Part shown: positions 34,605 through 45,225 of the stretch, piece by piece
How positions within the stretch are numbered: the first letter of the stretch is position 1
Layout: every line of letters begins with the position of its first letter
Origin: Pseudoxanthomonas sp. PXM01
GTDB taxonomy: Bacteria > Pseudomonadota > Gammaproteobacteria > Xanthomonadales > Xanthomonadaceae
Length of the DNA: 64,000 bases
Assembly: GCF_014851815.1 (NCBI RefSeq)
Contig: NZ_JACVAJ010000001.1
Location: forward strand, 1,798,001-1,862,000
Direction of reading: 5' to 3'
Position numbers and translations under genes: made by a program
Notes under the pieces: model-generated
Told to the model about the DNA's origin: nothing
The model's database searches: none
What the model saw: only the letters and a program-made list of their open reading frames with translations

Positions 34605-36518
34605 TTACGGACTTGCCGGCGCCTTCGCCAGCAGCGCCTCGACCGATCCGGTCGTGATCGGGTGGTAGCCCGGCTTGGCGCGCGCGAAGCTTTCCTTCGC
34701 CAACGCCAGGCCTTCCGGCGTCTTCACCAGTTCCTCGTAGATCGGCATGATCAGCTTGCGGCGGCCGACGCGCTCGATGAACTTGGCGATCTCAGGCTGC
34801 GCATCGACATAGCCGCTGCGGATCGTCAGCGGATACCAGCGCATCGCGATCTCGCCGTTGGCCGTGCCGGTGAAGTGGTAGGCATCATCCAGCTGCTTAA
34901 GCTGTTCGACCGTCAGCGTCTGGCCCATGCCCTCGAGGAAATGCACCCACTGCTGGGTCACCCAGGCACTGGTCAGCTGCGCATTCGGCAGCTGGCCACT
35001 GCCCTGCCAGGCGATGCGCGCGGTATCGGTGTTGGAGAAGCCACGCGACTGCACCTGCGGCGCGTTGGCCGGGATGCCCGTGCCGTACACCCAGGCCTGG
35101 ATCTCGGCGTCGGTGACCAGGTTGGGATGCTTGTCCAGCAGGTTCTTCTTCGCGTAGTCGAGGAACTGCTCGGTGGTGATGCTCTGGAAGGCGAAGTGGT
35201 CGAAGTAGCCGCGCAGGAAGGCGTCGAACTCCTGCCGGCCGAAACGCTCCTCCAGGAACTGCAGGAACCACGCGCCCTTGTCGTACGACACCGCACTCAG
35301 CGCGTCATCGGCATCCAGCTGCGTGCCCGGCTTGACCGCCAGCGACTGGGTCGCTTCCGGCATCGTGCCGATTTCCTTCTTCAGGCTGTTGCGGGCGATG
35401 GAGTACTCCATGCTCGCGGTTTCCTTGCCGTACAGCGCCTCGACGATGCGGTTCTCCACGTAACTCGTGAAGCCTTCGTTGAGCCAGCCGTGCTTGGCGC
35501 TGGAGAAGGTCACCAGGTTGCCCGACCAGCTGTGCGCCAGTTCATGCGCGATCAGCGAGACCAGCGTCTTGTCGCCGACGATCACGGTGGGCGTGATGAA
35601 GCTCAGGCGCGGGTTTTCCATGCCGCCGTACGGGAACGAGGGCGGCAGCACCAGCATGTCGTAACGGTCCCAGCGGTAGGGGCCGTACAGCTGCTCGGTG
35701 GCGGCGATCATCTTCTCGGTGTCTTCGAACTCCTTGGTCGCGCGGTCGACCATCGCCGGCTCGGCCCATACGCCGCTGCGCGCGGAGATCGGCTTGAACA
35801 CCAGGTCGCCGGCGGCGATCGCCATCAGGTACGACGGGATCTTCTGCGGCATCTTGAAGCTGTAGTCGCCGTCGCGTGCGGCGGCCGGGTCGTTGTCGGC
35901 GCTCATCAGCACCATCACGTCCGGACGCGAGGTCACGTGCGCGCTGTAGGTGTAGCGCACCTGCGGCGTGTCCTGCAGCGGCACCCAGCTGCGCGCGTGG
36001 ATCTGCTGCGACTGGCTGAACATGAAGGGCAGCTGCTTGCCTTCGGTCATTTCCGGCGTCAGCCACTGCAGGCCCGAGGCCTCGGGCGAGCTGGTGTAGG
36101 TGACCTTGACCTTGGCGTTGCGGGCCGGCGTCTCGATGGTCAGCTTGCTGCCCAGCACCGCGTCCTTGTCGGCCAGCGCGTACTGCAGCGGCGCCCAGGC
36201 GCCGTTGGCTTCGCCTTCGACCTTGGCGATGGTCAGATCGCGCGTGTCCAGCACCAGCTGGGTGGCGGCCTTGTCCTTCCAGTCCAGCGTGTAGGTCGCG
36301 GTGCCGCCGATGGTCTTGGCGTCGAAGTCGACCGCGATATCCAGCGCCAGGTCGTCGATGGCGACCTTGCGCGGTTCGGCGTAGGAGTGCTCGTCCTGAT
36401 CGACGGGCGCTTCGACGGCGGGCGGGGGCGTGGCGGCCACGGGAGCGGGTTCGGGTTCCTTGGAACAACCGGCCGCCAGCACGGCGGCGCAGGACAACAG
36501 CAAAGCCAGAGAACGCAT
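34605..36518 (-). CDS. M1 family zinc metallopeptidase (aminopeptidase), lipoprotein
   Basis: A 637-residue exported M1 peptidase anchored as a lipoprotein (lipobox AAGC). A beta-rich N-terminal domain precedes GGMENPRLSFI (the GxMEN substrate site) and the zinc site HELAHSWSGN with the third ligand Glu 19 residues later in NEGFTSYVE (about residues 320-350). The C-terminal part is shorter than in large aminopeptidase N and closer to leukotriene-A4-hydrolase-type proteins. It likely removes N-terminal residues from peptides in the periplasm or at the outer membrane. Confidence 0.9.
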   Translation of the reverse strand: MRSLALLLSCAAVLAAGCSKEPEPAPVAATPPPAVEAPVDQDEHSYAEPRKVAIDDLALDIAVDFDAKTIGGTATYTLDWKDKAATQLVLDTRDLTIAKVEGEANGAWAPLQYALADKDAVLGSKLTIETPARNAKVKVTYTSSPEASGLQWLTPEMTEGKQLPFMFSQSQQIHARSWVPLQDTPQVRYTYSAHVTSRPDVMVLMSADNDPAAARDGDYSFKMPQKIPSYLMAIAAGDLVFKPISARSGVWAEPAMVDRATKEFEDTEKMIAATEQLYGPYRWDRYDMLVLPPSFPYGGMENPRLSFITPTVIVGDKTLVSLIAHELAHSWSGNLVTFSSAKHGWLNEGFTSYVENRIVEALYGKETASMEYSIARNSLKKEIGTMPEATQSLAVKPGTQLDADDALSAVSYDKGAWFLQFLEERFGRQEFDAFLRGYFDHFAFQSITTEQFLDYAKKNLLDKHPNLVTDAEIQAWVYGTGIPANAPQVQSRGFSNTDTARIAWQGSGQLPNAQLTSAWVTQQWVHFLEGMGQTLTVEQLKQLDDAYHFTGTANGEIAMRWYPLTIRSGYVDAQPEIAKFIERVGRRKLIMPIYEELVKTPEGLALAKESFARAKPGYHPITTGSVEALLAKAPASP

Positions 36519-36579: not shown

Positions 36580-37341
36580 CTAGACCTTGTAGCCGGTATG
36601 GATCGCGACGATGCCGGCGGACAGGTTCTTGTAGCTGGTCCGGGCGAAGCCGGCCTCGTCCATCATGCCCTGCAGTTCGGCCTGCGGAGGATGCTGGCGG
36701 ATGCTTTCGGCCAGGTACTGGTAGCTGCCGGCGTCCTGGGCGAACAGCTGGCCCAGCTTCGGCAGCACCTTGAACGAATGGAAGTCGTACACCGGCTTGA
36801 ACCAGTCCACCGTGACCTCGGAGAACTCCAGCACGCGTGCCTGGCCGCCGACCTTCAGCACACGGTGCATGTCGCGCAGCGCGGCGGCCTTGTCGGTGAC
36901 GTTGCGCAGGCCGAAGGCGATCGTGACCAGGTCGAAGCTGGCGTCCGGGAAGGGCAGCGCCTCGGCGTTGCACTGCACGTATTCCAGGCCCTGCACCACG
37001 CCGCGGTCGGTCATACGGTCGCGACCGACCGACAGCATGCCGGCGTTGATGTCGCCCAGCACGATCTGGCCGGTGTCGCCCACCCGATCCTTCAGCAGCG
37101 CGGCGATGTCGCCGGTGCCGCCCGCCAGATCGAGCACCCGGTCGCCGCGCTTCACCTGGCAGGTGCCGACGAAGTAGCGCTTCCAGACCCGATGGATGCC
37201 GAGGCTCATCAGGTCGTTCATCAGGTCGTACTTGCCGGCCACCGAGGTGAAGACCTCGCCGACGAGCTTCTGCTTGTCCTTGGCGGCGACGTCGCGGAAG
37301 CCGAAATGGGTGGTGCCGCGTTCGTAGGGGGATTCGCTCAT
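36580..37341 (-). CDS. ubiE: Bifunctional demethylmenaquinone/2-methoxy-6-polyprenylbenzoquinol methyltransferase
   Basis: A 253-residue SAM-dependent C-methyltransferase of ubiquinone (and menaquinone) synthesis. N-terminal TTHFGFRDVAAKDKQKLVGE and VFTSVAGKYDLMNDLMSLGI, motif I VLDLAGGTGDIAALLKD, and the UbiE-specific GLRNVTDKAAALRDMHRVLK are all present. Length is that of UbiE. It stands alone at the edge of the metalloprotease array, on the same strand as the array. Confidence 0.96.
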   Translation of the reverse strand: MSESPYERGTTHFGFRDVAAKDKQKLVGEVFTSVAGKYDLMNDLMSLGIHRVWKRYFVGTCQVKRGDRVLDLAGGTGDIAALLKDRVGDTGQIVLGDINAGMLSVGRDRMTDRGVVQGLEYVQCNAEALPFPDASFDLVTIAFGLRNVTDKAAALRDMHRVLKVGGQARVLEFSEVTVDWFKPVYDFHSFKVLPKLGQLFAQDAGSYQYLAESIRQHPPQAELQGMMDEAGFARTSYKNLSAGIVAIHTGYKV

Positions 37342-37378: not shown

Positions 37379-39013
37379 TCACCGTTCGGACGACGCGCAG
37401 GCCGCCGATGCCGGCCATCGCCGTGCCAGCAGGCCGCAGATGCTCCCCATGTGCGGACGCTTGCCCGCTGGTATGCCGGCATCCATGCGTCCCGTCGCCA
37501 CAGGCGTGGCGGACAAGGCAGGCAGGCTGCGTTCCAGCGCAGGCGCGGGCGTGCTCATGACGCGTGGACGTGGCCCGATACGCACCCGGAAACCCGTGGG
37601 TGTCGAGGCCACCACCGAGACCCAGTGCCGGCCATCCGGTGTATTCCATTGCTCTCCCACCTTCAGCATCGAGCCTTCGTTGCCCGACAGGTCGGCAGGC
37701 GGTGTGTCGGTGTCGACACTGTAGGCCACACCGTTGCCGCCTACCCGATGCAGGATCACTGCATCGCCGGCCAGCGAGGACTCGTAGGCTCCGCTGCGAC
37801 GCCTGGCTTCCACCGTGTAGAACTCGGCCTGGTAGGGGTCGGGCTGTGCCGCACCGGCCAGCACCACCAGCTGCACCTGGCTGGATGCCGCCACACTGCC
37901 CGCCTCCAGCACGATGTCGTGGGTCGCCTCGTTGTCCGCCGGCACGACCTGCTTGCGTGCCGCTGGAACCCATCCCAGGCGATCCCGCTGGTGCATAGCC
38001 AGGTGCTTGGGCAGCAGGCCCAACACAGGATCTGTGGTGGCATGGCGCCAGGCATCGCTCATCAGGTCCCACGGGTTGTCGTGGGTATCGGCATCGCCAT
38101 CGGAGTTGTCCGAATGCGGCAACCCGTAACCGTGCCCCATCTCATGCGCCAGGCTGGCGATGTTGTCCGACGCCCACGGCGGACTCCAGGTCGCACGGGT
38201 GCAGGCATACACGCCCTCGAGCAGGCCGCAGGCCCCGCCTCCCCATGCGCGACCATCGAGTTCGCCGTTGAACACCAGATTGATGCCCTGCACGTGGCGG
38301 AAATCGACATCCGCTTCCGCCTGTGCGACGCAGTCGTTGAACAGGCGCGACAGGTCGGCGCGAGGCTTCCCCGCAATCCCGGTGATGTAGTCGGACCTCA
38401 CCGCCGGCAACGTGTACCACCCGTATGCCGCGCTGCCGGCCAGATCGATGGCGCCCTGGGAGACTTCCGACCAGTAGTGGCCCAGTTGGCCCGGCGCGTT
38501 GCCGTACTGTGCCTGGAAGAACGCACGCGTTTTCGGTTCCACCGCCATGTCGGCGAACTTGCACATCAGCGTCACCCAGCGGGTGCCGCCCACCAAGGGC
38601 TCGGCCATCGCAATACGTCCACCGGCGTCGCGTGCGGTGGCGCGTTGCGGCAGGCGTCCGACCGGCACGATCGCCTCGATGGCGGGATCCGCCGCGATGC
38701 TCCCCCGCGGCCGGTAAGACACGGCCACACGCCGGTTCGACAATGCGGAAAGATCGCCCGCCGCGCGCGTGGCCTCGGCCTCGTCCAGCCGATAGCGCAG
38801 GCCCGGCCCGAGCTCCAGCCAGGCCTCAATCGTGGGTGGCACCGTCACATGGCCCTGGGGCGCAGCGCGTGCATCGCCCCACCGCAGCTGCAGCGTGCCC
38901 TGCACGATGTCGCGCGCCATGGCGTGCGTGTTCAGACAGGCACCGACCACCAGCATCACGACACCTGCGAGGGCCGGACGGACGGTCATTTTCCCAGTTC
39001 GCTGCGATCCCAC
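37379..39013 (-). CDS. Secreted M6-like zinc metalloprotease, paralogue 1 of 4
   Basis: A 544-residue exported metalloprotease. A signal peptide (GVVMLVVGACLNTHAMA) leads to an N-terminal domain that starts VQGTLQLRWGD, as in its three neighbours. The peptidase domain has WVTLMCKFADMAVE, GHYWSEVSQGAIDL and WYTLP, and the zinc site HEMGHGYGLPHSDNSDGD (about residue 288), with a Met-turn WDLMSDAW. The consensus HExxHxxGxxH is that of metzincin-type enzymes, and the arrangement resembles the M6 (immune inhibitor A) group. A Pro/Ser linker precedes a C-terminal C-x12-C-A-x3-R tail. The start is GTG with an AGGGAG site; ATG at 38989 is an alternative. Substrate is unknown. Confidence 0.85.
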   Translation of the reverse strand: MGSQRTGKMTVRPALAGVVMLVVGACLNTHAMARDIVQGTLQLRWGDARAAPQGHVTVPPTIEAWLELGPGLRYRLDEAEATRAAGDLSALSNRRVAVSYRPRGSIAADPAIEAIVPVGRLPQRATARDAGGRIAMAEPLVGGTRWVTLMCKFADMAVEPKTRAFFQAQYGNAPGQLGHYWSEVSQGAIDLAGSAAYGWYTLPAVRSDYITGIAGKPRADLSRLFNDCVAQAEADVDFRHVQGINLVFNGELDGRAWGGGACGLLEGVYACTRATWSPPWASDNIASLAHEMGHGYGLPHSDNSDGDADTHDNPWDLMSDAWRHATTDPVLGLLPKHLAMHQRDRLGWVPAARKQVVPADNEATHDIVLEAGSVAASSQVQLVVLAGAAQPDPYQAEFYTVEARRRSGAYESSLAGDAVILHRVGGNGVAYSVDTDTPPADLSGNEGSMLKVGEQWNTPDGRHWVSVVASTPTGFRVRIGPRPRVMSTPAPALERSLPALSATPVATGRMDAGIPAGKRPHMGSICGLLARRWPASAACASSER

Positions 39014-39027
39014 GTCGGTCTCCCTGT

Positions 39028-39045
39028 CGTGACATCACACTCACG
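39028..39045. promoter_or_regulatory. Inverted repeat near the start of protease paralogue 1
   Basis: CGTGA (39028-39032) and TCACG (39041-39045) flank an 8 bp spacer, 15 bp before the GTG start of paralogue 1. It recalls a Clp/CRP-type site but has an 8 bp spacer instead of 6, and lies close to the ribosome-binding site. A weak call. Confidence 0.3.
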
Positions 39046-39175
39046 ATCTAAGCTTTATCGCGATCCGGCGTCCAAGCAGGAAACCGGTCGCATGACCGGT
39101 GCCACCGCTTGTTCCAATCCGCGATGCAGCGCACGTTCCGACGGTTTCCGCCCACCCCACACCCCTCCAGATCCA

Positions 39176-40864
39176 TCACCGGGTCAGCAAGGCGCACACC
39201 ATCGGCATCCGCAGGAGACGTGGCATGCGCTCGCATCCGCGTGATCGTGGCGCCGAAGCGGCTGCGGTGCGCGTGACGACCGCAGACGATGCCGCAGACG
39301 GCAGCGTCCTGAGCGCCGCGCCCGTCTGCGGCTTGCCGGCGCCTTGCAGCAGGGCAGGCGTCGGGGCGCTCATCGCGCGCGGACGCGGCCCCACCCGTAC
39401 CACGAAACCTTGCGCCGTCTCCGAGACCACCTGCACCCAGTGGCGCTCATCGGGGGTACTCCATTGCTCGCCCACCTTCAGCATCGAACCTTCGTTGCCG
39501 GAGAAATTCGCCGCCGGCGTGTCGGTATCGACACTGCGGGCGATGCCGTAGTCCTCGATCCGATGGATGATCACCGCATCGCCCGCCAGCGCAGACTCGT
39601 AGAGGCCATGACGACGACGCGCCTCCAGCGTGTAGATGACGGTCTTGTAGGGATCCGGTTGCGCCGGCATCGCCAGTACCAGAAGCTGCACGCCACCGGT
39701 GCCTTCCATGCCTGCCGCGTCCAGCACGATCTCGTGCGTGTCGCGGTTGTCCGAGACGAGGACGTGCTTGCGATCCGGCGCCACCCAACCCAGCCGTTCG
39801 CGCTGGTAAGCGCTCAGGTACTTCGGCAGCAAACCGTAGGTCGTATCGGTGACGGCCCCGCGCCAGGCATCGCTCATCAGGTCCCAGGGATTGTCGTAGG
39901 TGTCGTTGTCGCCGTCGGAGTTGTCCGAGTGCGGCAACCCGTAGCCGTGCCCCATCTCGTGCGCGAGCGGTGCCAGGTTGTTGAACGACCACGGCGGATT
40001 CCACGTCGCACGCGTGCAGGTGTAGCTGCCATCGAGCATCGCGCAGGCGCCTCCGCCCCATGCACGGCCATCGAGTTCGTCGTTGAACATCAGGTTGACG
40101 CCCTGCGCACCACCGAAATCGACCGCCGCATCGGCCTGTGCGGTGCAGTCGGCGAACAGCAGCGACAGGTCCGCCCGTGGCCGGCCCTCGACGATCGCGA
40201 CATAGGCCGATCTCGGCTTCGGCAGCGTGTACCAGCCGTGCGCACTGCTGCCTTCCAAGTCGATCGCGCCTTGCGAAACGACGGACCAGTAGTGGCCCAG
40301 CTGGCCCGGCGCGTTGCCGTACTGGGACTGGAAATAGGCGCGTGGCTTCTGCTCGGCGGCGACATCGGCGAACTTGCACATCAGCGTGATCCAGCGCGTA
40401 CGGCCGATCATCGGCGCCGCCGCCATCACCCGACCATCCTTGCCCACGGCCAACGCGCGCTGCGGCACCCGATCCGCCGGCACGATGGCGCTGATCGCCG
40501 GTGCGGGGCCGGAGACGGACATCAGCTTGTCCGCTGAGGCCGTGTTCCCGCGCGTGTCGTAGGACACCGCGACCCGGCGGTTCGCCAGCGCATACAGGTC
40601 GCCTGCCGCCCGTCGGGCCTGCGCCACGTCCAGCCGATAGCGCTTGCCGGGGCCTGCATCCAGCCATGCTTCGAACGGCGATGACGACGGCGCAACGCCT
40701 TGCGGTGCGCGCGGTGCGTCGCCCCACCGCAGTTGGAGCACGCCATGCACGACATCGTCCCGCTGCGTGTCGATCGCCATCGCCCCACCCGCAAACAGGC
40801 ACGCCACGAGCGCACAGCACCGCGCGACCGCGCGCCGCGCGGCCCCATTGTTCACGCCCATCAT
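39176..40864 (-). CDS. Secreted M6-like zinc metalloprotease, paralogue 2 of 4
   Basis: A 562-residue member of the same tandem family. The signal peptide ends ACLFAGGAMA, the conserved start of the mature part is VVHGVLQLRWGDAPRAPQG, and the zinc site HEMGHGYGLPHSDNSDGD is near residue 300 with WDLMSDAW after it. The body (FYTLE-type MTVIYTLEARRRHGLYE and RIEDYGIARSVDTDT) is closest to paralogue 3. A Pro/Ala/Ser-rich linker precedes the tail CERMPRLLRMPMVCALLTR. A CGGAGTGA ribosome site overlaps the ATG start. It has its own 250 bp upstream spacer, so it may be expressed independently. Confidence 0.87.
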   Translation of the reverse strand: MMGVNNGAARRAVARCCALVACLFAGGAMAIDTQRDDVVHGVLQLRWGDAPRAPQGVAPSSSPFEAWLDAGPGKRYRLDVAQARRAAGDLYALANRRVAVSYDTRGNTASADKLMSVSGPAPAISAIVPADRVPQRALAVGKDGRVMAAAPMIGRTRWITLMCKFADVAAEQKPRAYFQSQYGNAPGQLGHYWSVVSQGAIDLEGSSAHGWYTLPKPRSAYVAIVEGRPRADLSLLFADCTAQADAAVDFGGAQGVNLMFNDELDGRAWGGGACAMLDGSYTCTRATWNPPWSFNNLAPLAHEMGHGYGLPHSDNSDGDNDTYDNPWDLMSDAWRGAVTDTTYGLLPKYLSAYQRERLGWVAPDRKHVLVSDNRDTHEIVLDAAGMEGTGGVQLLVLAMPAQPDPYKTVIYTLEARRRHGLYESALAGDAVIIHRIEDYGIARSVDTDTPAANFSGNEGSMLKVGEQWSTPDERHWVQVVSETAQGFVVRVGPRPRAMSAPTPALLQGAGKPQTGAALRTLPSAASSAVVTRTAAASAPRSRGCERMPRLLRMPMVCALLTR

Positions 40865-41114
40865 TCACTCCGAGTTCGCGCAGTGACGCGCGACTACTCG
40901 GGACATCGCCAAGACGCGTCCAATGCGGCAAGCGGATCCGCGTTTTCGGCGGCGACATTCCGTTTCTGGAATGCACGTCGATCTTCGTCTGCGCTGCTTT
41001 GCGCATTCCGTCGGAACGCATACGAATGCGGCCGTGTCCGCTCCTCGCACGTCCTGTCACATGGGAATGCGATTACATCGACACTCTCTGCTCAAGATCG
41101 AAGCCACGCCACGC

Positions 41115-42800
41115 TCAGCGCTCGAGCAGCGCGCAGACAGGGGCCAGCCGCAACAGGGTCGGCAACGCATCGCAGCCGCGCCGACGCGCCACCTGCGGCC
41201 GGGCAGCCGGCGCGGGGCTGGAAGGGCGTGGCGTCGCGGGAGACGACGACGCCACCGGCGTCGGGCGCACCAGCACGGGAGCCGGGGAGCTCATGGCGCG
41301 CGGACGGGGACCGACCCGCACCACGAATCCCTGCGCGGTGGCGGACACCACTTCCACCCAGTGCAGTTCGTCCGGCGTGCTCCAGCGCCCTCCCACCTTC
41401 AGCATCGAGCCTTCGTTGCTGGAGAAGTTCGCGGCCGGCGTATCGCGGTCGACGCTGTAGGCGATGCCGTAGTCCTCGAGCCGGTGGATGATCACCGCAT
41501 CGCCCGCCAGGTTCGCTTCGTACGTGCCGGTGCGGCGGCGTGCCTCCAGGGTGTAGATCACGGTCTTGTACGGATCCGGCTGCGCCGGGAGGGCGAGCAC
41601 CACCAGCTGCGTGTTGGCCGTCTTCATGACGCTTCCCGCATCCAGCACGAACTCCAGCGTCTCGCGGTTGTTGGCCGCCACGATGCGCTTGCGCGACGCC
41701 GGCAGCCAGCCCAGGCGCTCGCGCTGGTACATGTTCGGATGCTTCGGGAGCAGGCCGTAGGTCGCATCGGTGGTCGCGTGGCGCCACGCATCGCTCATGA
41801 CGTCCCACGGATTGTCGTAGGTATCGCTGTCGCCGTCTGAGTTGTTGGAATGCGGCAGTCCGTAGCCATGACCCATCTCGTGCGCCAGCGGTGCGAGATT
41901 GGCGAACGACCACGGCGGACTCCACGTCACCCGCGTGCACGTGTAGGTGCCGTCCAGCGTGGCGCAGGCACCGCCGCCCCACGAATTGCCGTCGAGTTCG
42001 CCGTTGAACATCAGGTTGACGCCCTGGATGCCGGCGAAGTCGACGTCGGCATCGGCGGCCGACGCGCAATCGGAGAACAGTTCCGACAGCTGCGCCTTCT
42101 GCTTGCCGTTGACGTCCGCCAGGTAGGCCGAGCGCGGCTTCGGCAACGTGTACCAGCCGTGTGCGGAACTGCCCGCCAGGTTGATCTGCCCGTAAGAAAC
42201 CTCGGCCCAGTAGTGGCCCAGCTGTCCCGGTGCGTTGCCGTACTGGTCCTGGAAGAAGCTGCGCGGCTTCTGCTCGGTCGCGATGTCGGCGAACTTGCAC
42301 ATCAGGGTGACCCAGCGGGTCGCACCGAGTATCGGTGCCGACGACATCACGCGTCCGTCCGCACCCATCGCGAGCGCACGTTGCGGCAGCCTGTCCGTCG
42401 GCACGATGGTGCTGATCGCCGGTAGCGCGCCGGAGGCGGACATGACCTTCGACGACGTCGCGATGCTCGTGCGCGTGTCGTACGACACCGCTACGCGGCG
42501 GTTCGCCAGCGCATACAGGTCGCCCGCCGCGCGCTGCGCCTGCGCCACGTCCAGCGCCACGCGCTGCCCGGGGCCCATGTCCAGCCAGGCGTCCAGCTGC
42601 GGCTGCGCCTGCACACGCCCCGGCAGCGCGCGCGGAGGATCCGCCCACTGCAGCTGCAATGTTCCCTGCACCACCGTTTCCGCCTTCAGAGGAAGGACGG
42701 GGAGGATGCATGCCAATACCGACATTCCAGCGACGAAGAGCGCCCGAACGCTCCTGCATCGCGTGTCGGCTGATCGGTGTTTGACCACGCGCGACCCCAT
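41115..42800 (-). CDS. Secreted M6-like zinc metalloprotease, paralogue 3 of 4
   Basis: A 561-residue member of the tandem family. A long basic N-region and a hydrophobic core (MSVLACILPVLPLKA) give an export signal, followed by VVQGTLQLQWADPPRALPG. The zinc site is HEMGHGYGLPHSNNSDGD (about residue 306), with Asn for the usual Asp after the third His motif, and WDVMSDAW is the Met-turn. A Pro/Ala/Ser-rich linker runs into the tail CDALPTLLRLAPVCALLER. No good ribosome site precedes 42800, so the internal ATG at MSVLACIL could be the start. Confidence 0.86.
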   Translation of the reverse strand: MGSRVVKHRSADTRCRSVRALFVAGMSVLACILPVLPLKAETVVQGTLQLQWADPPRALPGRVQAQPQLDAWLDMGPGQRVALDVAQAQRAAGDLYALANRRVAVSYDTRTSIATSSKVMSASGALPAISTIVPTDRLPQRALAMGADGRVMSSAPILGATRWVTLMCKFADIATEQKPRSFFQDQYGNAPGQLGHYWAEVSYGQINLAGSSAHGWYTLPKPRSAYLADVNGKQKAQLSELFSDCASAADADVDFAGIQGVNLMFNGELDGNSWGGGACATLDGTYTCTRVTWSPPWSFANLAPLAHEMGHGYGLPHSNNSDGDSDTYDNPWDVMSDAWRHATTDATYGLLPKHPNMYQRERLGWLPASRKRIVAANNRETLEFVLDAGSVMKTANTQLVVLALPAQPDPYKTVIYTLEARRRTGTYEANLAGDAVIIHRLEDYGIAYSVDRDTPAANFSSNEGSMLKVGGRWSTPDELHWVEVVSATAQGFVVRVGPRPRAMSSPAPVLVRPTPVASSSPATPRPSSPAPAARPQVARRRGCDALPTLLRLAPVCALLER

Positions 42801-42991
42801 TTGCAGCCGGCGGGTCGAGATGACGCCGCCATGGTCGGGGTGTCGGCAGGAAGCAGGAGGTCTTGAGGGGACTTTCGCGCGAATCGCGCTGGATGTTCCG
42901 AACTGCGATGCAGGTCAGGAATCGATCGCGAACATCATCGTCTTCCGTCCCGACAACGCGCACTCACGCGATGTCGGGGCGCACCGGAACA

Positions 42992-43010
42992 TGTAGGGAC
43001 ATCCCCTACA
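42992..43010 (-). other. Hairpin just after the stop of protease paralogue 4
   Basis: Perfect 7 bp arms TGTAGGG and CCCTACA around a 5 bp loop, starting 2 bp after the stop codon. It has no T tract, so it is more likely a 3'-end stabilising or processing hairpin than a strong terminator. Confidence 0.45.
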
Positions 43011-43011
43011 G

Positions 43012-44628
43012 TCAGCGTTCGCGGATCGCACATGCGATGACAGGCGAGCGCATGCCGCCCGCGGTGCAGTGCGCGACGGTCGGCGTGCGCTCGCGTGCGC
43101 CGCCGGATACCGGCTGCGCGGCCGGCAAGGCGAGGGAAGATGGCGACACGGCATCCGGCTTCAATCGCGGCGGCAACGGCGTACTCATCACCCGCGCCTG
43201 CCCGACCGTCAGCACGAAGCCGGTCGCCGTCTGCGCCTTGACGGTGACCACGTGCGAACCCTCGGGCGTAAGCCAGCGCTCGCCTACCTTGAACATCGAT
43301 CCTTCGTTGTTCGAACGGTTGGCGGGCGGCACGTCGGCATCGATGCTGTAGGCCGTCCCGGACCGCTCGACCTTGTGGATGATCACCGCATTGCCCGCCA
43401 GGCTGCCTTCGTACGGCCCCTCGCGCTTTCTCGCTTCCAGGGTGTACACCACGGTGGCATAGGGATCGGCCTGCGGCGACAGCGAGAGCACCAGCATCTG
43501 CACGTTCGTCGATCCGGCAATGTGCGCGTAATCGAGGGCGACATCGCGCGGCGCCTGGTCGCCGAGCGCCACGATCTGCTGGCGCGGTGCATCGACCCAG
43601 CTCAGCCGGTGGCGCTGAAAGATGTTGATGTGCTTAGGACGCGTACCGTACGTGGTATCGCCGACCGCATTCGACCAGCTGTCGCTCATCACGTCCCACG
43701 GATTGTCGTAGGTGTCGTCGTCTCCGTCGGAATTGTCGGAGTGCGGCAGGCCGTAGCCGTGCCCCATCTCGTGCGCGAGTGGCGCGAGGTTGCCGAACGA
43801 CCACGGAGGATTCCACGTGACCCGCTTGCACAGGCGCGCGCCACGCACCGTGGCGCAGCTCTGTCCGCCCCAGGCGTAACCGTCCAGATTGCCGTTGAAC
43901 ATCATGTTGATGCCCACCGGCGCGGTGAGGTTGACCGTGTCCGGCGCGGCCGACGCGCAGTCGGCGAACAGTTTGTTGAGGTCCGCCTTGTCCTTGCCGT
44001 CCACCGTCGTGACGTAGGTGGATCGCGGATTCGGCAGCGTGTACCAGCCATGCGCCGTGCTGCCCGTTAGGTTGATCTTGTTGTACGACACCTCTCGCCA
44101 GTAGTGGCCCAACTGGCCCACGCCCTCGCCGTACTGGGACTGGAAGAAGGCCTGGTCCTTCTGTTCGTCCGCGATGTCGCTGAACTTGCACATCAGCGTC
44201 ACCCAGCGCGTGGTGCCGCTGATCGGCGCCGCCGCCATCACGCGCGCGTTGGCGGCCTGCACGGATGCGGACGACGCCACGCGATCGGCGGGCACGATCG
44301 CCTCGATGGCCGGCATGGAGGACATGATGCGTCCTGCGGGCGCGAAGGCCACGGCGACGCGGCGGTTGGCCAGCACATACAGGTCGCCCGCGGCGAGCTT
44401 CGCCTGCGCCGGGTCGAGGCGGATGCGGGTCCCGTCGTCCTTCAGCAGCGAGGCGTTGAACTGCGGCGCAAGCCGCGGCTGTCCTTTCGCCGCAGGGGGT
44501 GGATCGCCCCATTCGAGGTGCAGCAATCCCTGTTCGATGGTCTGTGCGCGTGCGGCCGACATTGCACACATGACCAGCACCGCCATCGCCCACGCGCGGC
44601 ACGGCGCCGCCCTGGCATCCTTCCCCAT
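43012..44628 (-). CDS. Secreted M6-like zinc metalloprotease, paralogue 4 of 4
   Basis: A 538-residue protease, first in the order of transcription and the most diverged of the four. A signal peptide (VLVMCAMSAARA) is followed by the mature start IEQGLLHLEWGDPPPAAKG. The zinc site is HEMGHGYGLPHSDNSDGD (about residue 285) and the Met-turn WDVMSDSW. Cysteine positions differ (RGARLCKRVTWNPPW, QSCATV). The tail is CTAGGMRSPVIACAIRER. GGAG lies 5 bases before the ATG. A Clp/CRP-like site lies 76 bp upstream. Short linker compared with paralogues 2 and 3. Confidence 0.86.
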   Translation of the reverse strand: MGKDARAAPCRAWAMAVLVMCAMSAARAQTIEQGLLHLEWGDPPPAAKGQPRLAPQFNASLLKDDGTRIRLDPAQAKLAAGDLYVLANRRVAVAFAPAGRIMSSMPAIEAIVPADRVASSASVQAANARVMAAAPISGTTRWVTLMCKFSDIADEQKDQAFFQSQYGEGVGQLGHYWREVSYNKINLTGSTAHGWYTLPNPRSTYVTTVDGKDKADLNKLFADCASAAPDTVNLTAPVGINMMFNGNLDGYAWGGQSCATVRGARLCKRVTWNPPWSFGNLAPLAHEMGHGYGLPHSDNSDGDDDTYDNPWDVMSDSWSNAVGDTTYGTRPKHINIFQRHRLSWVDAPRQQIVALGDQAPRDVALDYAHIAGSTNVQMLVLSLSPQADPYATVVYTLEARKREGPYEGSLAGNAVIIHKVERSGTAYSIDADVPPANRSNNEGSMFKVGERWLTPEGSHVVTVKAQTATGFVLTVGQARVMSTPLPPRLKPDAVSPSSLALPAAQPVSGGARERTPTVAHCTAGGMRSPVIACAIRER

Positions 44629-44703: not shown

Positions 44704-44719
44704 CGTGAGTGGCATCACA
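44704..44719. promoter_or_regulatory. Predicted Clp/CRP-like binding site
   Basis: CGTGA-N6-TCACA (TGTGA-N6-TCACG read leftward) matches the CRP consensus TGTGA-N6-TCACA at 9 of 10 positions. It lies in the 141 bp spacer between paralogue 4 and the deaminase, 76 bp before the protease start. In Xanthomonas the CRP homologue Clp drives secreted enzymes and is released by c-di-GMP; that link here is inference. Confidence 0.45.
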
Positions 44720-44769: not shown

Positions 44770-45225
44770 ATGGACCACGCCATCGACTATCGCGCCCTTC
44801 TCCAGACCGCCATCGCCGAAGCCCGGCAGGGACTCGCCGAAGGCGGCATTCCCATCGGCGCCGCTCTCTACCATCAGGATGGGCGCCTGCTCGGCTGCGG
44901 CCACAACCGGCGCGTGCAGGAAGGCGACCCCTCCGTGCATGGCGAAACCGACGCGTTCCGCAAGGCCGGCCGTCAGCGTCGCTACCGCGACACGATCATG
45001 GTCACGACGCTGGCGCCCTGCTGGTACTGCAGCGGACTGGTGCGTCAGTTCAACATCGGTACCGTGGTGGTGGGCGAATCGGTGACGTTCCGGGGCGGCA
45101 TCGACTGGCTGCGCGAGTCCGGCGTCAACGTCGTCGACCTGCAGAGCCAGGAATGCATCGATCTGCTCGGCGGCTACATCCGCGCCAATCCCGAGGTGTG
45201 GAACGAGGACATCGGCGAGGACTGA
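44770..45225 (+). CDS. Cytidine/deoxycytidylate-type nucleoside deaminase
   Basis: A 151-residue zinc deaminase of the CDA superfamily. The HxE zinc/proton-shuttle motif HGETDAFRKAG is near residue 57 and the CxxC zinc motif LAPCWYCSG near residue 84. This spacing and the C-terminal segment resemble fungal-type cytosine deaminase, so cytosine or a modified base is a likely substrate, but that is only similarity. The start ATG at 44770 is chosen because it begins the conserved fold. It is divergent from the metalloprotease array. Confidence 0.87.
   Translation: MDHAIDYRALLQTAIAEARQGLAEGGIPIGAALYHQDGRLLGCGHNRRVQEGDPSVHGETDAFRKAGRQRRYRDTIMVTTLAPCWYCSGLVRQFNIGTVVVGESVTFRGGIDWLRESGVNVVDLQSQECIDLLGGYIRANPEVWNEDIGED

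Follow-up and report, generated by a model that had tools for sequence, protein, structure and literature searches.

The subject of this report is an array of four adjacent paralogous genes in a 64,000-nucleotide stretch of DNA from Pseudoxanthomonas sp. PXM01 (contig NZ_JACVAJ010000001.1, positions 1,798,001 to 1,862,000), the whole of which we call the window. Judging from sequence, we think it quite likely that the array encodes four secreted zinc endopeptidases of a single divergent metzincin clade, digestive enzymes that have been kept because their specificity and regulation have diverged. Every copy appears functional, and the array is a genuine, if rather ordinary, example of local duplication with divergence: a tandem expansion within a metzincin clade that family models fit poorly, interesting but not startling.

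The genes, all on the minus strand, are copy A (37379..39013; 544 amino acids, GTG start), which adjoins ubiE, copy B (39176..40864; 562 amino acids), copy C (41115..42800; 561 amino acids) and copy D (43012..44628; 538 amino acids), separated by 162 bp (A-B), 250 bp (B-C) and 211 bp (C-D). A preliminary description of this DNA had reported four same-strand genes of 538-562 codons lying 162-250 bp apart, and its coordinates, strand, lengths and gaps all match ours. The zinc site HEMGHGYGLPH and the Met-turn WD[LV]MSD that it listed are found in all four copies, the N-termini of A-D, judged by eye, resemble the export signals it claimed, and Pfam bears out ubiE and a deaminase gene as the flanks. 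In all, that description observed soundly, but it has one detail wrong, gives the proteins too specific a family label and proposes a role that lacks support. Protein identity to A is 62% for B, 59% for C and 50% for D; because of these identities, and because a four-gene array occupies the same slot in four other species, the array is more than a chance grouping. The arrays in the other species also rule out an assembly artefact. A plasmid-borne origin has no support, there being one distant plasmid match, at 27.7% identity over 60% of the query. A fifth paralogue, E, which the preliminary description had not mentioned, is located outside the window at a distance of about 64 kb (L107:9206-10891).

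Copy number and the chromosomal slot

How is the family distributed among relatives? The genus was surveyed in 38 genomes, this one included, by a search with the whole protein. The family is present in 24 of them, with five copies in five genomes, two copies in 12 and one copy in seven; the remaining 14 have none. The four-gene array between the deaminase gene and ubiE is found in five of the 38 (the window genome, P. japonensis (L034), PXM02 (L035), L109 and L112), each of which carries one remote copy besides, and a tandem pair in the same slot with the same flanks is found in ten. The two other two-copy genomes are CF125, in which just one of the copies occupies the slot, and a fragmented metagenome-assembled genome (MAG), where one copy is next to the deaminase gene on a short contig and the other next to ubiE on another short contig. 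In all seven single-copy Pseudoxanthomonas genomes the gene lies between the deaminase gene and ubiE. Copy number at this locus, to which the preliminary description had pointed, is thus 0, 1, 2 or 4 genes between the same flanks across the genus genomes.

Outside the genus, seven of 11 Luteimonas-named loci have the gene in the same slot; L056 has another order, L091 has ubiE alone, and L065 and L079 have neither flank. The single-copy homologues of Luteimonas and of other Pseudoxanthomonas are like the window copies in slot and zinc site; they are unlike them in being single, and at some loci (e.g. L042, L044, L047, L120) in having about 3 kb between the gene and ubiE. In a sample of 149 genomes from the wider family there is a match at 1e-30 in 14, covering five of 54 genera, so that the distribution is patchy. 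These putative metzincins form a clade that is patchy, mostly from Lysobacterales in the data examined, and fitted by family models only below their cut-offs. Some other lineages (L070:8003-11332, L062, G170, G097) have two or three copies, including a tandem pair in Tahibacter aquaticus, and the gene seems to duplicate repeatedly across lineages.

The flanks of the slot in the window are ubiE (36580..37341, minus strand), recognised by Pfam and synteny, and a cytidine/deoxycytidylate-deaminase-family gene (44770..45225, plus strand), recognised by Pfam, with its start codon picked by eye. On the far side of ubiE is a Pfam-identified M1 aminopeptidase gene (34605..36518, minus strand) whose product has, by eye, a lipoprotein-like N-terminus, and an M1 aminopeptidase gene is near ubiE in many relatives as well. 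What becomes of the slot when the peptidase is missing? ubiE was found in all 14 zero-copy genomes, and in all 12 of their loci that were read the deaminase gene and ubiE are neighbours with no peptidase match at E 1e-5. The deaminase and ubiE match ends are 56-190 bp apart in five of these loci and about 1.1-4.4 kb apart in seven. In the two of these seven whose intervening DNA was inspected (L146:6743-8059 and L150:768-5328), the slot is filled by genes that look by eye transporter-like, and therefore the spot may undergo repeated gene gain and loss.

Family assignment

What sort of peptidases are these? For A-D every Pfam model stays below its gathering score; Reprolysin_5, M6 and M11 rank highest. 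The M6 model PF05547 gives 12.0 (A), 20.7 (B), 15.4 (C) and 19.8 (D) bits against a gathering score of 22, and the M11 model PF05548 gives 18.6 (C) and 14.2 (D) bits against 21, with A and B unlisted at E up to 1. The best-scoring family model is TIGR03296, the broad M6 domain of NCBIfam, at 51.1 (A), 60.7 (B), 70.4 (C) and 70.2 (D) bits (E 1.7e-13 to 2.3e-19; match within residues 161-412), short of the cut-off of 110.8. At E up to 0.001 this model matches just the five copies in the genome (D as two stretches), and no match anywhere in the genome exceeds 110.8.

The wider comparison rests on 118 open reading frame (ORF) rows, which include duplicates and fragments and form a biased sample, as the named loci were found via the patterns HEMGHGY and DNPWD[LV]M; the former leaves the third zinc ligand free. 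Each of the 115 rows with HExxH has His as its third ligand, and the full HExxHxxGxxH is present in all four window copies; the three rows lacking HExxH are pieces of L079 and L091. Alignment A2 retains 101 of the 118 rows, the window copies included, and omits five duplicates, five pieces of split or frameshifted loci (L079, L091) and seven weak or partial rows. At E up to 0.001 TIGR03296 matches all 101 A2 members, Reprolysin_5 matches 70, M11 29 and M6 19. Among the 40 array or pair copies, the zinc site is present in 40 and the Met-turn in 39, by sequence. A pair gene at L118:8521-10467 has WDLLSD, with Leu replacing the Met of the Met-turn, and an intact zinc site. Searches of PDB sequences gave motif-level metzincin matches only (best E 0.35 and 0.071) plus unrelated ones, and were of no use for classification.

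Are the window proteins then true M6 peptidases of the immune inhibitor A type? In favour of M6 membership is the rank of TIGR03296 as the best-scoring model, at the E values given above, and M6 is tabulated under subclan MA(M) in part of PMC3890501. Both the TIGR03296 proteins and the MEROPS M6 enzymes of PF05547 (immune inhibitor A, thuringilysin) are HExxH zincins like ours. The window proteins add their own N-terminal domain and tail to the TIGR03296 match, however, and their scores of 51-70 bits against 110.8 and 12-20.7 against 22 fall short. According to PMC12237041, His is the usual third zinc ligand and Asp, the ligand of snapalysins and thuringilysins, a rare one, whereas it is His throughout our HExxH rows. 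We therefore consider true M6 membership quite unlikely. The M11 (gametolysin) family offers a partial likeness: 29 A2 members match its model, the match in copy C spans residues 168-396, and M11 likewise occurs with many paralogues in a single genome, as a portion of PMC8643629 has it. Against M11 are the sub-threshold scores of C and D and the absence of A and B at E up to 1. Given the sub-threshold M6 scores and the His third ligand, the proteins are best described, from their motifs, as putative metzincins; their nearest model is the broad M6 one, and they lack the tested features of true M6. The M6-like label of the preliminary description is a weak one: it agrees with the nearest model but not with the cut-offs of PF05547 and TIGR03296 or the Asp ligand of thuringilysins.

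Divergence, duplication history and selection

The four paralogues share 60-73% DNA identity. Recent gene conversion between copies is rejected, as there is no near-identical 40-codon window, the best (B versus D, near the zinc site) having 89% DNA identity. With regions defined in copy C numbering, identity among the four proteins is 47-66% in residues 46-146 (the N-terminal domain), 56-74% in residues 160-300 and 21-41% in the tails (residues 501-561). Four folded regions were compared, and in each of the six pairs it is the N-terminal domain that has the lowest identity, so that the preliminary description erred in calling it near-identical. Might this domain confer latency by a cysteine switch? 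Columns with Cys in more than 30% of the A2 rows are 168, 245, 279, 288, 543 and 556 of copy C, and no such column is inside the N-terminal domain in the 101-row alignment. Since the frequent Cys columns are all outside that domain, a cysteine switch is unlikely.

A tree was built from 72 of the 118 rows. In it D is joined by the pair gene on the deaminase side, and C by the pair gene on the ubiE side, the tandem pairs being those of ten other Pseudoxanthomonas genomes. A, B and E form one clade (support 97/99) beside C and its pair orthologues. Support for the individual groups is 89/89 for A, 89/92 for B and 100/99 for E, and is weaker for array C (93/63) and D (95/54). The tree, which the preliminary description had proposed, thus has an old D/C pair with A+B+E as sister to the C side. 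Local duplication with divergence, its reading of the array, is well supported by slot synteny, copy numbers, tree and selection.

All five copies are under purifying selection. The ratio of nonsynonymous to synonymous divergence (dN/dS) by NG86 is 0.076-0.337 in 25 of 25 orthologue comparisons, that is, five genome pairs, which share genomes and hence are not independent, by five copies. YN00 gave values in 11 of the 25, at 0.023-0.113, and none in 14. Because dN/dS is well below 1 throughout, all copies seem to be kept. The copies do not evolve alike: dN between this genome and P. japonensis is 0.098 for A, 0.111 for B, 0.038 for C and 0.034 for D, and A and B exceed C and D in all five genome pairs. 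A and B seem freer, or more driven, to change.

Upstream regions

A CRP/Clp-like box, TGTGATGCCACTCACG, is located at 44704..44719 on the minus strand, 76 bp upstream of the ATG of copy D, and matches TGTGA-N6-TCACR; we take TGTGA-N6-TCAC(R) to be the CRP/Clp consensus. The box is also 51 bp upstream of the divergent deaminase gene, and in this shared region it could serve either gene. It is the one match in the window, with 0.24 expected; the whole genome has four matches, versus one for the reversed pattern. The sequence upstream of 15 D orthologues (five from arrays, ten from pairs) is conserved, with TGTGA-N6-TCAC in nine and TCAC replaced by TCGC in four and by GCAC in two. Xanthomonas Clp binds a TGTGA-containing site upstream of an extracellular endoglucanase gene, and the putative Clp motif quoted there differs from the box pattern used here, according to a part of PMC6430473. 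In our genome there are three Crp-family matches above cut-off. As the quoted Clp motif is a different one, the box is no more than suggestive, and D may be under CRP/Clp-type control.

Conserved blocks are also present upstream of C (15 genomes) and of B (five genomes). The A upstream region is common to three genomes, and in G013 and G028 there is almost no B-A gap. Scans for sigma-70 promoters and for terminators found no more than chance would give. Two palindromes were seen by eye on the minus strand, CATTCC-N6-GGAATG upstream of B (40865-41114), which is also in P. japonensis, and TGTAGGG-N5-CCCTACA just after D (42801-43011), which has one mismatch in P. japonensis. Both are possible operators, or one of them a terminator.

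Proposed function and alternatives

What might the array do, and how did it arise? Each product would be a pre-pro-enzyme in which an export signal and an N-terminal domain, probably a pro-domain, precede the catalytic domain, which carries the Met-turn and a zinc site of three His; another C-terminal portion would follow, and then a linker ending in a basic tip with two cysteines. Export would be by Sec and then by type II secretion; GspD, the component of that system searched, scores 557.5 bits versus a cut-off of 351.35. The secreted enzymes would digest environmental protein, and the co-oriented M1 aminopeptidase could plausibly finish the released peptides. A single gene between the deaminase gene and ubiE would have arisen first, duplication would then have given the D-C pair, and a C-like copy may have given rise to A, B and the remote E. 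The extra copies would have been retained by purifying selection, with faster divergence and separate upstream regions. What the data show directly are the genes and their motifs, the synteny, the copy numbers, the tree, purifying selection and the conservation upstream of D. The secretion route, latency, substrates, regulation and role are all aspects that we infer.

Several points count against our interpretation. None of A-D reaches the cut-off of any curated family. When A, B, C and E of the five-copy genomes are constrained to a single clade, an approximately unbiased (AU) test rejects the topology (p 0.0004), and it does so too with the Gammapro3 pair gene added (p 0.007). Instead of having expanded recently in place, the A/B/E line may therefore be older than the present small species group and lost elsewhere, or its placement may be distorted by fast evolution and long branches. 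In several comparisons dS is close to 1 or higher, which makes those dN/dS ratios rough. The box in the window is by itself not significant, as 18 of 100 shuffles hold at least one match, and the loosened box pattern, which matches 15 of 15 D orthologues and none of 103 other rows, was widened only after the D-upstream alignment had been seen.

One might think of the array as an arsenal for predation, competition or virulence, with proteases aimed at other cells or hosts, as the preliminary description had suggested for predation or virulence. Secreted metzincins in general are able to serve such ends, and the faster evolution of A, B and E could mirror changing targets. No support for the proposal was found, however. 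Relatives with one copy have it at this same position next to ubiE, Pfam shows nothing resembling a toxin, effector or immunity gene in the five flanking ORFs to which it was applied, and at the level of titles and abstract starts we found no paper on these genes, the peptidase family or the array, a mention inside texts or in subscription papers being possible. Because the single-copy form shares the slot (7/7 Pseudoxanthomonas and 7/11 Luteimonas-named loci) near ubiE and the M1 aminopeptidase gene, nutrient proteolysis appears the better fit, and we give the arsenal little credence. Could the extra copies instead supply simply more enzyme for the same job? The tandem layout and the shared zinc site would suit such an increase in dosage, but a recent dosage array would be near-identical, and here DNA identity is just 60-73%, with 89% in the best 40-codon window; moreover the upstream regions are unlike one another, and A and B evolve faster than C and D. 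Dosage alone is thus an unlikely explanation. That A, B or E are decaying relics, as their faster divergence might be taken to mean, is very improbable indeed, as dN/dS is well below 1 in 25 of 25 comparisons and frames and zinc sites are intact in five species.

A bolder proposal is that the slot is a protease-diversifying cassette whose paralogues are deployed singly, with only D under CRP/Clp control, and that the linker and two-cysteine tip are an undescribed sorting or anchoring tail. We regard it as rather unlikely, if less so than the alternatives above. If it were true, there would be four paralogues with individually conserved upstream regions and diverging clefts. Four digestive endopeptidases with diverged specificity and regulation remain our preferred reading. 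The natural series of 0, 1, 2 and 4+1 copies at one slot lends itself to watching a secreted protease duplicate and specialise, and points to a metzincin clade that current family models fit poorly. Practical interest is moderate: a single environmental genus offers four related secreted proteases whose specificities may differ.

The fifth copy and the C-terminal tails

The surroundings of E differ among the five-copy genomes. P. japonensis, G013, G028 and PXM02 share neighbouring ORFs (stretches of 7.9-19 kb), while no ORF in the 19 kb around the window genome's E matches the neighbours of the other E copies. The window genome's E is closest to that of PXM02, at 83% versus about 62% to that of P. 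japonensis. E has thus been relocated or exchanged between species. A broken gene, considered because of a TGA inside the match, was discounted: the frame is open with a zinc site, and the match overruns the natural stop by 24 bases. A plasmid-borne origin has no support, there being one distant plasmid match, at 27.7% identity over 60% of the query.

The C-terminal tail, like E, had gone unmentioned in the preliminary description. Counted by sequence pattern, a Pro/Ala/Ser/Thr/Gly-rich linker with two cysteines at the end is present in 19 of 20 four-gene-array copies and 20 of 20 tandem-pair copies. The linker was counted at 33-43 residues, with a mean Pro/Ala/Ser/Thr/Gly content of 64% in array copies and 67% in pair copies, and a basic residue is within the last two positions in 38 of 40. 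By the same pattern the two-cysteine tip is found in five of 11 single-copy-type rows (including Luteimonas mephitis L057 and two rows of MAG PMG_160) and one of six remote rows; the Luteimonas-type homologues differ in having a short basic tail, with the tip in none of nine rows. Homologues from Tahibacter, Dokdonella and kin (L069, L071-L076, L078, L081, L083) have a short F-x-x-[GN]-F-like motif near the C-terminus, e.g. FRNGFQ and FKNGFDG, which differs from the Pseudoxanthomonas tail and is possibly a terminal signal.

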